From Saprospiraceae bacterium (GTDB taxonomy: Bacteria > Bacteroidota > Bacteroidia > Chitinophagales > Saprospiraceae): 33,599 nucleotides of DNA. A program made the position numbers and the translations under genes. The notes under the pieces are model-generated. The model searched no databases and was not told the DNA's origin. It worked only from the letters and a program-made list of their open reading frames with translations. Location: NCBI GenBank assembly GCA_023300665.1, contig JALZUU010000457.1, positions 1 through 33,599 on the forward strand, in the 5' to 3' direction. Shown here piece by piece: positions 3,446 through 32,461 of the stretch (its first letter is position 1; each line of letters starts with the position of its first letter).

Positions 3446-3781
3446 CTAGCGATCTGCACAACGAACACACCGACTGCTTTCAGGCATATACATAAGACGA
3501 GCGGGCTGGATTGGATTTTTACAAAAAGCACAATTTCCAAAATCATCATTATCTACCCGCGATAGTGCTACTTTTAGCTTGCTTAGTTTCTGACGGGTAC
3601 TCCGCAAACTTGCTTCCGCAACACTTTTGTTATTAATCGCATCCATTCGACTTACTCGTCCAATTGAATTTTCAGGTGAGATCGGCTTGGTCAATTCTTC
3701 CAAACTTTCAATTTTTTCTTGGGTAGAACTAATTGCTGCTACAATTTTTGATTTTAATTCCTTTCTGGCAGAGGGTGTCAT
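3446..3781 (-). CDS. DksA/TraR-family C4 zinc-finger protein
   Basis: This 111-residue protein has the two-part DksA/TraR layout: an N-terminal helical region likely to form a coiled coil (residues 5-75, rich in K, E, S and L) and a C-terminal zinc finger with C84, C87, C105 and C108 (CAFCKNPIQPARLMYMPESS, then RCVRC). Proteins of this family bind the RNA polymerase secondary channel and modulate initiation, often with ppGpp. The DxxDxA motif of true DksA at the coiled-coil tip is not obvious; the equivalent region reads RMDAINNKSVAEA. It is better called DksA-like than DksA. The ATG at 3781 fits, and the gene appears monocistronic. Confidence 0.88.
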   Translation of the reverse strand: MTPSARKELKSKIVAAISSTQEKIESLEELTKPISPENSIGRVSRMDAINNKSVAEASLRSTRQKLSKLKVALSRVDNDDFGNCAFCKNPIQPARLMYMPESSRCVRCADR

Positions 3782-3874
3782 ATGTGAAATTTATTTTGTA
3801 AATTACTAAAGGAGATATTAGGCTTAATTTCTCGACTTAAGGCCTTTCTAAGTAAGAGAAGTTGTTTAAAAACT

Positions 3875-3990
3875 CCCAAATTAGGACTGTACTACTAAGT
3901 GTGTCATTTTGCAGCCCGCGTCCCGGCAGTACCGCCGGGAAAGGCCAACCCGCTGACACACTTTAACCGAATAGTCTCCCCAAATTAGGA
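3875..3990. repeat. GC-rich palindromic element flanked by 12-bp direct repeats (MITE-like)
   Basis: The direct repeat CCCAAATTAGGA occurs at 3875-3886 and again at 3979-3990. Between the copies lies a perfect 10-bp inverted repeat, AAGTGTGTCA (3897-3906) and TGACACACTT (3954-3963), enclosing a second perfect stem TCCCGGC (3921-3927) / GCCGGGA (3934-3940). The core is strikingly GC-rich in an AT-rich intergenic region. The arrangement resembles a short non-autonomous insertion with a target-site duplication, or a structured RNA or REP-like element. The remainder of 3782-4147 shows no gene; it holds the two divergent promoter regions. Confidence 0.55.
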
Positions 3991-4147: not shown

Positions 4148-5044
4148 GTGAATCAACTCAGCTGGACTTATTTAGCGGATGACGGAAAACAGCACTTTGT
4201 TGGGCTTGCACATGGTGCGGAGAGTGGTCATTTGGTAGTACACTGTAATTCAAAGGTGGTTTTGATTGATTTTAAGGTTTTTGATAATGCCTCTTATTCA
4301 ATTTTTATTGATGAGCAGCTCTGTGAAATCGCTATTGAGAAACAAGAAGGGCAATATTTTTATAGTTTTGAAATAGATAATCAAGCCGATACCCCCCGTA
4401 ATCGAGCTCGTAAAAAGCTTGAAAAACAACATTTGTTACAAAGCATCGCTTTTCTTGGCACCTTGGTATTAATTGTCAGTATCGCCATCTTCAGTATTAC
4501 TCGATGGACTTCTAAACAAGATCAAAGAAATATTGCAACAAAATTAAAAGGTACAGGTCAACAGATCAGTGCTAAAATTCTAGTTCCAAAAGAAGCGTCT
4601 GTGGATTATGCTAGTTATTATTTTGTGGTTAATGGAAAATCTTATGCCTCTTCGACTACCTACTCCAACAAACTTACAGAACTATTACCCAACGGGATGC
4701 CGTTAGAGGAAGGTGACGAGTTTTTAGTCACCTATGTTCCTAGTAATCCTTCTTTAAACGAAATAGACTACGGAAAACCTACTCAATTTCAAATCAACCG
4801 ATATAGAGATCGAGTCTTAAACCGATTGTTCGAAAATAATCCTAAGATCACTAAGGAGTCTTTAACCTGCTTTTTCGATCAAATCTACAAAGAGAAAGGT
4901 ATAGAAGGCGTCGCTCAACTATATTTTCAGAAAACCACCTCTTCTAAAAATTCTCGACATAATCGCCAAACCTTTGAACGATTATTACAAGAATCTAATT
5001 TGAAAGAAACAATTCAAAAGACCTGTGGAAAGATTTCTTTCTAA
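4148..5044 (+). CDS. Single-pass membrane protein with DUF3592-like outer domain
   Basis: The 298-residue protein has an N-terminal soluble domain (about residues 1-90, beginning with NQLSWTYLADDGKQHFVGLAHG), a positively charged stretch NRARKKLEKQ, one transmembrane helix (about residues 98-116) and a C-terminal domain. The part around residues 130-205 (YYFVVNGKSYASSTTY, then a P-G-DEFLVTYVPSNPSLN stretch) resembles the DUF3592 pattern of membrane proteins of unknown role. The positive-inside rule puts the first domain in the cytoplasm and the second in the periplasm. Translation starts at GTG (4148); no upstream in-frame ATG was seen. The function is unknown. It stands alone, 133 nt ahead of scpB. 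Confidence 0.75.
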   Translation: MNQLSWTYLADDGKQHFVGLAHGAESGHLVVHCNSKVVLIDFKVFDNASYSIFIDEQLCEIAIEKQEGQYFYSFEIDNQADTPRNRARKKLEKQHLLQSIAFLGTLVLIVSIAIFSITRWTSKQDQRNIATKLKGTGQQISAKILVPKEASVDYASYYFVVNGKSYASSTTYSNKLTELLPNGMPLEEGDEFLVTYVPSNPSLNEIDYGKPTQFQINRYRDRVLNRLFENNPKITKESLTCFFDQIYKEKGIEGVAQLYFQKTTSSKNSRHNRQTFERLLQESNLKETIQKTCGKISF

Positions 5045-19120: not shown

Positions 19121-19248
19121 ACAAAATGAGAACTTGTCTAAACTTTCATTAATTGACTGTAATTAGCAAATTTTGAGAAACGCTAAGATAGATCGCATAC
19201 TACTGGACAGATCATTCTTTCTCTTTTCATCCCTTGAGGGAATATTCG

Positions 19249-23310: not shown

Positions 23311-23528
23311 GCTATTGGCCAGTTAGCTAGTTGGCTCCCTTGATCGCGGATGCCCTTCGGGCATTTTATCGCGAATTAAACGGGACTAATAAACTAACAA
23401 AAAGCAAGTAAAAAAGGGTTGTCAACATCATGTTGACAACCCTTTTTTCAACCTATAATATACTCTTGTAACTCATCACTAAAAAGATCAAATTAGAAGA
23501 GCAGCTAACTAGCTAACAGGCCAATAGC
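23311..23528. repeat. Inverted-repeat pair bounding the space between the lipoprotein gene and rho
   Basis: The 26 bases at 23311-23336 and the reverse complement of 23503-23528 match at 24 of 26 positions (GCTATTGGCC, then GTTAGCTAGTT). The two arms lie almost against the flanking gene ends: the right arm finishes 3 nt from the rho stop. Between them is a hairpin TCGCG (23344-23348) / CGCGA (23370-23374) with an inner TGCCC/GGGCA stem, plus a long terminator. The arms belong to the same word family as the terminator at 9231 and the repeat at 31129. Confidence 0.75.
23411..23447. terminator. Bidirectional terminator between convergent genes
   Basis: The 17-base arm AAAAAGGGTTGTCAACA (23411-23427) is perfectly complementary to 23431-23447 with a 3-nt loop. 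The A and T ends give a U-tail in both directions, so it can end transcription of both the lipoprotein gene and the convergent rho gene. Confidence 0.9.
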
Positions 23529-23531
23529 TAT

Positions 23532-25301
23532 TTAGCCATTCATAGAAGTTAAGAACTCTTCATTCGTTTGCGTATGTAGCATATGCTTACGTAAGAATTC
23601 CATCGCTTCGTCTGGCTTCATATCTGCTAAGTGCTTACGAAGGATGAACATTCGCTGTAAAGTTTCCTTATCAAATAGCAAGTCTTCTCGACGAGTACTG
23701 GATTTGGTAAGGTCGATAGCAGGGTAGAGACGTTTGTTGGCCAAAGAACGATCCAACTGTAACTCCATGTTACCTGTACCTTTAAATTCTTCGAAGATTA
23801 CTTGATCCATCTTAGAACCTGTATCAATCAAGGCAGTTGCTAAAATAGTTAGTGAACCACCTTTTTCAACGTTACGTGCTGCACCAAAGAATTTTTTCGG
23901 CTTGTGTAAAGCATTTGCTTCTACACCACCTGATAATACTTTTCCGCTAGCAGGTGCTACGGTGTTATAAGCTCGTGCCAATCGTGTAATCGAATCGAGT
24001 AGGATTACTACATCGTGACCACATTCTACCAAACGTTTGGCTTTTTCTAAGACAATGTTTGCCACTCTTACGTGGTTATCTGCTGGCTCATCAAACGTCG
24101 AAGCGACCACTTCTGCATCTACGTGACGTTTCATATCCGTTACTTCTTCTGGACGTTCATCAACTAGTAAAACTAGTAAATAACATTCAGGATGATTTTT
24201 TGCAATTGCGTTGGCAACATCTTTTAATAAGAAAGTTTTACCTGTCTTAGGTTGTGCCACGATCAAACCACGTTGTCCTTTTCCGATTGGAGAAAACAAA
24301 TCAATCATTCGCTCTCCGTAATCTTTTCCATTTCCAGTTTTATCCGTTAATTGAAATTTCTCATTAGGAAATAATGGCGTTAAATAATCGAAAGGAACTC
24401 GATCTCTTACCTGTTGTGGTTCCAAACCATTGATGTTAGAAACTCTTAATAAGGCAAAATATTTTTCTCCTTCTTTTGGTGGGCGAATCGCACCTTTGAC
24501 AGTATCTCCGGTTCTCAAACCAAATAATTTAATCTGGCTTGGAGAAACATAAATATCATCAGGAGAAGTCAAGTAATTATAGTCAGAAGAACGTAAGAAA
24601 CCATAACCATCAGGCATCATTTCTAAAATTCCTTCTCCTTCTATAATACCATCTAATTCAATATTAAATTTATCCGGATCTGGTGCTGCAGGTGCTTCAC
24701 GACTGTCTCTACGATCTCGATCATCCCGATCATCTCGGCTACGACTATCACGGCGATCATCTCTACGATCATCACGGCGGTTATCGCGGCGATCGTCTCT
24801 ACGATCATCCCGACTGTCACGGCGATCATCTCTACGATCGTCCCGGCGATCGCGGTCATCGCGGCGATCGTCTCTACGATCATCACGGCTATCGCGACGG
24901 TCATCCCGACTATCTCTACGGTCTCGATCATCCCGATCATCTCGGCTACGACTATCACGGCGATCATCTCTACGATCATCACGGCGGTTATCGCGGCGAT
25001 CATCACGACTATCGCGATCAGCAGAACGACGGGTAGTTGTTTTACGATCACCATTACTTCGGCTAGATGTTTTTTCGCTTTGCTCATCTTCCTCAGACTT
25101 TGTCGTCTTAGAAACAGGCTTGGAACGTTTTTCTTCTTTCTCCTTTTTACCACTATCTTCTTTACCTACCGCTTGTTCGTCAAGGATTTTATAGATTAGC
25201 TCTTTTTTTGTCAATTTCTTATACCCTTTTAGCTCTAGTTCTTCCGCTAGATTTTTAAGTTCAGGTACCAGCATATCATTTAGCTGCAAAATGTCGTACA
25301 T
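23532..25301 (-). CDS. rho: Transcription termination factor Rho with Arg/Asp-rich disordered insertion
   Basis: Rho is the hexameric RNA helicase that ends transcription. In 589 residues: N-terminal helical domain (1-45, [20 protein letters not shown]), a charged linker (46-95), an Arg/Asp polyampholyte tract (96-201, almost only R, D and S), the OB-fold RNA-binding domain (about 213-290, [16 protein letters not shown]), and the RecA-like ATPase with Walker A PKTGKT (351-356), Walker [11 protein letters not shown] with D436, and the RNA/ATP loop around 447-470. E. coli Rho is 419 residues; the excess is the tract. Within it a 31-residue segment (102-132) recurs identically at 171-201. Bacteroidota Rho proteins are known for such insertions; in Bacteroides thetaiotaomicron this region drives condensate formation. 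The gene is monocistronic and divergent from serS. Confidence 0.97.
24706..25001. repeat. 89-bp direct duplication within the rho Arg/Asp tract
   Basis: Bases 24706-24794 and 24913-25001 are identical except for one position (24714 A, 24921 G), offset by exactly 207 bp (69 codons). The DNA between is built of related short units (CGNCGATCRTC words), so the tract looks like a repeat array that grew by in-frame slippage or unequal recombination. Confidence 0.9.
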
Positions 25302-31275: not shown

Positions 31276-31355
31276 CTTCTAGAATTTGTTCGTAAACAAA
31301 ACTCTAAATTAGAAATAATTTATAGAAGTTGTTTAATAACCATAAAGACAAAAAA

Positions 31356-32148: not shown

Positions 32149-32461
32149 ATAATGAATAATGGGTTAATGAATAATGTGGTAATGAATAATTAATAATGCC
32201 TGCGATCGTGTAAAGTGAAGAGGAGGAAATAAATTTTATTGATTGGCCTGTTTGCCATTCACTAATTATATTCCAGATACAAAAATTTGGCTCCTTATTT
32301 AAAATTACTGGCTCATTTTCTCAGCTGTAAAACTTAAAAAAATCAATCAGTTAACTAACATTTTTTTACACTTAGCAAATTTTGCAAACTTGATTCTTAA
32401 TAAAACGATCGCAGGCATTATTCATTAAAAAATTATTAATTCTTCATTATTCATCAAAAAC
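32149..32461. repeat. Repeat-bounded spacer between the SDR gene and mce
   Basis: The gap is bounded by a perfect 18-bp inverted repeat: AATAATGCCTGCGATCGT (32192-32209) against its reverse complement at 32405-32422. Outside the left arm a 15-bp tandem unit containing AATGAATAATG occurs three times (starting 32151, 32166 and 32181). Outside the right arm similar ATTATTCATT words occur on the other strand up to 32453. The central 200 bases are AT-rich and hold no supported frame. The layout is like a small non-autonomous mobile element or a very large hairpin. Confidence 0.7.

Follow-up and report, generated by a model that had tools for sequence, protein, structure and literature searches.

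What is the GC-rich hairpin that stands between two genes of a Saprospiraceae bacterium? The stretch of DNA analysed here (the window; 33,599 nucleotides) carries at 3883-3978 a gene-less element of 96 bp, spanned by no open reading frame of 80 aa or more. It is flanked on the left by a DksA/TraR-like gene, at 3446-3781 on the minus strand, and on the right, at 4148-5044 on the plus strand, by a gene with a match to the FAIM1 domain. The nested stems that first drew attention to the locus are real. A perfect 10-bp stem (AAGTGTGTCA at 3897-3906 with TGACACACTT at 3954-3963) encloses a perfect 7-bp stem (TCCCGGC at 3921-3927 with GCCGGGA at 3934-3940). The core is also, as had been claimed, far richer in GC than its surroundings (77%, compared with 55% for the whole element and 30% for the flanks). 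The element strand has a folding energy of -40 kcal/mol (z = -4.5), which none of 200 shuffles equalled. The original prediction left three options: a MITE, a recombination site or a structured RNA. The first is strongly supported. The high copy number, the terminal inverted repeats, the duplications that differ from copy to copy, the empty orthologous sites and the existence of insertion sequences with matching ends make it very likely that this is a non-autonomous miniature inverted-repeat transposon (MITE) of the IS256 (prokaryotic Mutator) type.

The first line of evidence is copy number. Within the element's own genome a BLAST search retrieved about 40 copies of it, so this is not the single-copy element that would have spoken against mobility. 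A sequence-profile search raised the number to at least 64 dispersed copies, and in six other genomes of the genus it found at least 43, 55, 86, 5, 58 and 66. The profile was built from copies of types B and C (see below), and all of these per-genome counts are lower bounds, since no more than 150 candidates were scored in any genome. The family thus amounts to hundreds of copies genus-wide. Beyond the genus it fades: BLAST against 54 outside genomes gave no match to the element, and among 150 genomes of the family the profile found weak matches in just two outside the genus. Plasmid records held no match to the element, and viral contigs none to its left-half 22-mer or to a core pattern. About 40 genomic contexts of copies were inspected. 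No plausible gene is interrupted, the sole overlapping frame being 67 aa long, and the neighbouring genes occur in all four orientations in similar numbers. At one locus (L206; contig C219 of genome G003, 23363-23743) four copies stand in tandem at a spacing of 97 bp, joined by short junctions resembling ACGGGACGG and CCGTAACG.

Where exactly does the element end? Alignment of copies places a left terminal inverted repeat, AGGACTGTACTACTAAGTGTGTCA, at 3883-3906 and a right one, TGACACACTTTAACCGAATAGTCTC, at 3954-3978 (both plus strand). They are imperfect and about 24 bp long, and the left one matches the ends of congeneric IS256-family insertion sequences. The end consensus across the family is GGGACTGTwCCAyTAAGTGTGTCA. 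Outside these ends, the original prediction had pointed to 12-bp direct repeats as a target-site duplication. The repeats do exist (CCCAAATTAGGA at 3875-3886 and 3979-3990), but only 8 bp of them were duplicated: CCCAAATT, at 3875-3882 on the left and at 3979-3986 on the right, in the register common to the family. The remaining AGGA is a chance match. On the left it is the element's own end (family consensus GGGA), and it recurs by coincidence in the host bases that follow the right CCCAAATT. For the window copy alone, the boundary may sit 1 bp over, giving the duplication CCCAAATTA.

The family as a whole settles the register. In aligned copies the flanks vary from copy to copy and matching bases are found only in the 8-bp register. 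Across 137 copies, mean flanking n-mer identity reaches 0.69 for 8-mers but only 0.31-0.44 for lengths of 5-7 and 9-12. Matches at 7 or 8 of the 8 flank bases were seen in 64 of the 137 (40 at 8/8 and 24 at 7/8), and shuffling the partners of the flanks left at most 3 copies at 7/8 or better. The duplicated sites in this set are AT-rich and their sequence differs between copies. The recombination-site option fails at this point because the copies sit at unrelated sites flanked by different 8-mers.

If the element was inserted here, then relatives might be expected to retain the site without it, and empty sites had been named as a check. Five congeners (G001, G002, G004, G005 and G006) indeed have both flanking genes adjacent with the element absent between them, and in all five the alignment is better with the flanks joined than with the site filled. 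The intergenic region has diverged, so that the precise empty site can be pinpointed in just two genomes, G002 and G006, where the surroundings of the insertion point remain alignable (GAGCTTGTCTAAACTTCCAAA versus GAGAAGTTGTTTAAAAACTCCCAAA). Relatives of the adjacent gene were found in Saprospiraceae MAGs, which places the lineage in this family.

The bases directly to the left of the MITE, including the target site, are themselves a repeat (AGAAGTTGTTTAAAAACTCC(A/C)AAATT, window 3857-3882). Its motif AGTTGTTTAAAAACT occurs exactly 16 times in the same genome, compared with 0 for the reversed control, and six of the occurrences continue as CCAAAATTGnnTnCGAACTGATnAAATT. Matches of 25-30 nt to this repeat are found across the genus. 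Because some of the copies are close to the ends of contigs, the repeat possibly marks one end of a further mobile element. Related motifs in the window are AGAACTTGTCTAAACTT (19129-19145) and AGAAGTTGTTTAATAACC (31324-31341), the latter just upstream of the start of a dehydrogenase-like ORF; the empty sites of G002 and G006 have a similar motif, GAGCTTGTCTAAACTTC. The window also contains a 23-bp inverted repeat between two genes (TAATTAATAATGCCTGCGATCGT at 32187-32209 and ACGATCGCAGGCATTATTCATTA at 32405-32427; 96% complementary, 195 nt apart). A reading frame of 589 aa (23532-25301) includes imperfect tandem DNA repeats (24697-25034) that encode a long stretch rich in Arg and Asp.

The link to IS256 comes from the ends. 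Transposases of the IS256 family (PF00872) are present in four of the six congeners. At one locus (L064) the insertion sequence is complete: it measures about 1.33 kb, encodes a transposase of 418 aa (NF033543, E = 6e-107), has the ends GGGAGTGTCCCATAAAGTGTGTCA and GAGAGTGTCCTTTCAAGTGTGTCA and is flanked by an 8-bp duplication, CATGAACC. Another locus (L058) holds an IS256-family insertion sequence with related ends and the duplication TCTATTGG. Contigs break off just inside the end GGGACTGTTCAGTAAAGTGTGTCA at six places, four of them in G004 and the other two in G003, as is expected of a collapsed multi-copy insertion sequence, and these copies of GGGACTGTTCAGTAAAGTGTGTCA adjoin sequence that reads by eye as the C-terminus of an IS256-type transposase. 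In the cleanest copies the left end of the MITE is GGGACTGTTCCATTAAGTGTGTCA, which differs from GGGACTGTTCAGTAAAGTGTGTCA at 3 of 24 bases. One point against the IS256 assignment is that the TGTAAA motif described for IS256 ends (PMC7780238) reads TGTGTCA in the MITE, as it does in the congeneric insertion sequences. A further locus, L057, was considered as the parent and rejected; its transposase belongs to a different insertion sequence beside a matching end. More than 20 copies of another repeat in G002 (e.g., at L097, L104 and L111) have one end that reads GGGAGTGTTCAGTAAAGTGTGTCA and then TCTTTGTCGTATTAGCATTGCGTAATACGA, and this is possibly a second element using IS256-type ends.

Could another DDE family (e.g., of the IS66, IS6 or ISL3 types) have driven a MITE with 8-bp duplications instead? 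Such duplications are not unique to IS256, and no matching transposase was seen in the element's own assembly. The absence of an IS256 transposase from that assembly is weak evidence, because it is 87% complete and in 796 contigs; for the same reason, a co-resident driver is something that we can only infer. Against another driver stand the 24-bp ends, only about 3 bases removed from those of congeneric IS256-family insertion sequences, and the equal duplication length. In addition, the IS256-like end pattern is found genus-wide, and its reversed control had zero matches in seven genomes. A driver other than IS256 is therefore improbable.

Most probably, a transposase of the IS256 family, whose gene lies elsewhere in the cell or lay in its ancestors, bound both ends of the MITE in trans. 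By analogy with the IS256 family, which makes 8-bp duplications and moves by copy-out/paste-in (PMC7780238), the MITE would have moved in the same way and landed in the AT-rich CCCAAATT between the DksA/TraR-like gene and the gene with the FAIM1 match. The long hairpin would then arise because the two inverted repeats face each other across a GC-rich palindromic filler. This filler probably does not derive from the insertion sequences examined: no similarity was detectable between the MITE core and their interiors, and the ends alone match. Origin by internal deletion of an insertion sequence is consequently conjectural.

Might the hairpin instead be a structured RNA or a cis-regulatory element (terminator, leader or attenuator) selected at its loci? 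The fold is strong, the copies are intergenic and, in a mutual information analysis of 93 aligned copies, one plausible core pair (profile columns 41-57) varies in a pairing-compatible manner. However, the same analysis revealed no nested ladder of covarying pairs. RNAalifold returned no pairs from the mixed-core alignment, because the centres of types A and B cannot be aligned with each other. Nothing credible for the element was found in Rfam at the gathering or a relaxed threshold, a tRNA scan found nothing, and the element gave no terminator-like signal. The structured-RNA option is thus left with no positive evidence from the Rfam, covariation and terminator tests. Genes in all four orientations, 8-bp duplications at the insertion sites and absence from five relatives also argue against it, and we regard it as highly unlikely. 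Mobilisation of a REP-type palindrome by a Y1 (RAYT-like) transposase is equally unlikely: the core is palindromic and GC-rich and Y1 transposases occur in six of the seven genus genomes, but the single-strand Y1 mechanism makes no target duplications, and the core hairpin patterns tested are absent from the four Y1 loci examined. The apical hairpin as a free REP was likewise rejected, since CTCCCTGATTCGGGAGGCAGG lies inside a MITE core in 30 of 30 loci examined.

The core of the IS256-type MITE is variable, with at least three alternative centres among the copies. The window copy belongs to type A, which has the hairpin CCCGGCAGTACCGCCGGG; its core occupies 3907-3953 (plus strand), with the apical hairpin TCCCGGC(agtacc)GCCGGGA at 3921-3940. 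Type B has CCTTGTATTCCTAAAGGAAGG instead. Type C is type B plus an extra hairpin of 22-25 bp that ends in CAGGC, at the same spot, and comes in variants (CTCCCTGATTCGGGAGGCAGGC in G001, G003 and G005; TCCGCAATACTGCGGAGCAGGCT in G002 and G006; CCCGAGACGATGCTCGGG types in G000 and G006). Hairpin tips differ even among otherwise near-identical copies. In a tree built from the arms only, core types are mixed within starred clades (read without L025). One unites L015 and L018 (A) with L032 (B), another L014 and L017 (A) with L031, L034 and L040 (B), and a further one includes L009, L010 and L012 (A), L022 (B) and L029 (C). These mixed clades suggest that the apex has been exchanged between MITE copies, short of proof because the arm alignment has only 71 columns. 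One copy in G006 (L268) has two successive palindromic core inserts (141 bp in total), of which the second is CCTGCCTGGATGACCAGTCAGACAGG.

What if the core has a history of its own? In a genome of a different genus (G009), three places match the core only, without IS256-type ends, and one of these matches lies inside a different inverted repeat (AGTTTACaAAAC...GTTTAGTAAACT). Perhaps, then, the core is an older palindromic module that was acquired by IS256-type ends. Its pattern is approximately CCCGCGCCTnnnATCCTAAAGGAAGsCnnnCsCGC. A fuller version, in which the core is an independent conserved module with interchangeable apices swapped between MITE lineages and with different transposons as vehicles, draws on few sequences, and we think it rather doubtful. 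If true, IS256-type ends would be the carriers of the core in this genus, and elsewhere in Saprospiraceae other sequence contexts would carry it.

The copies form a new family, of a kind that is well known. In the part of the literature covered, no description was found of MITEs in Saprospiraceae or of an IS256-derived MITE in Bacteroidetes, and the bacterial MITEs compared here stem from other insertion sequences. Bacteroidota thereby gain a genus-wide, high-copy MITE family of the IS256 type. With hundreds of copies, and an 8-bp duplication that can be read in many of them, it offers material for studies of target choice, and the tips that differ between near-identical copies provide a natural data set for the gain, loss and exchange of palindrome apices. 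For annotation, a conspicuous structured intergenic element is explained as a transposon.

How does it compare with known systems? IS256-family insertion sequences (e.g., ISCth4; PMC7780238) share its 8-bp target duplications, and the congeneric ones have near-identical ends, whereas the MITE has no transposase gene, is 96 bp long rather than 1.3-1.5 kb and has a core, palindromic and GC-rich, that originated separately. MITEAba12 of Acinetobacter is likewise gene-less and small (113 bp), with imperfect inverted repeats, and shares only its ends and duplication length with its proposed parent; that parent is ISAba12, however, the duplications are 9 bp and the core is AT-rich (PMC6382973). MITECca01 of Cardinium, also in Bacteroidota, is similarly high-copy, mostly intergenic and lineage-restricted, but is 240 bp long and derives from an IS982-family element (PMC9769881). 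Finally, the REP/BIME palindromes associated with RAYT transposases are short, GC-rich, intergenic and high-copy too; unlike them, the Saprospiraceae element has terminal inverted repeats of the DDE type and is flanked by 8-bp duplications (PMC2817692).
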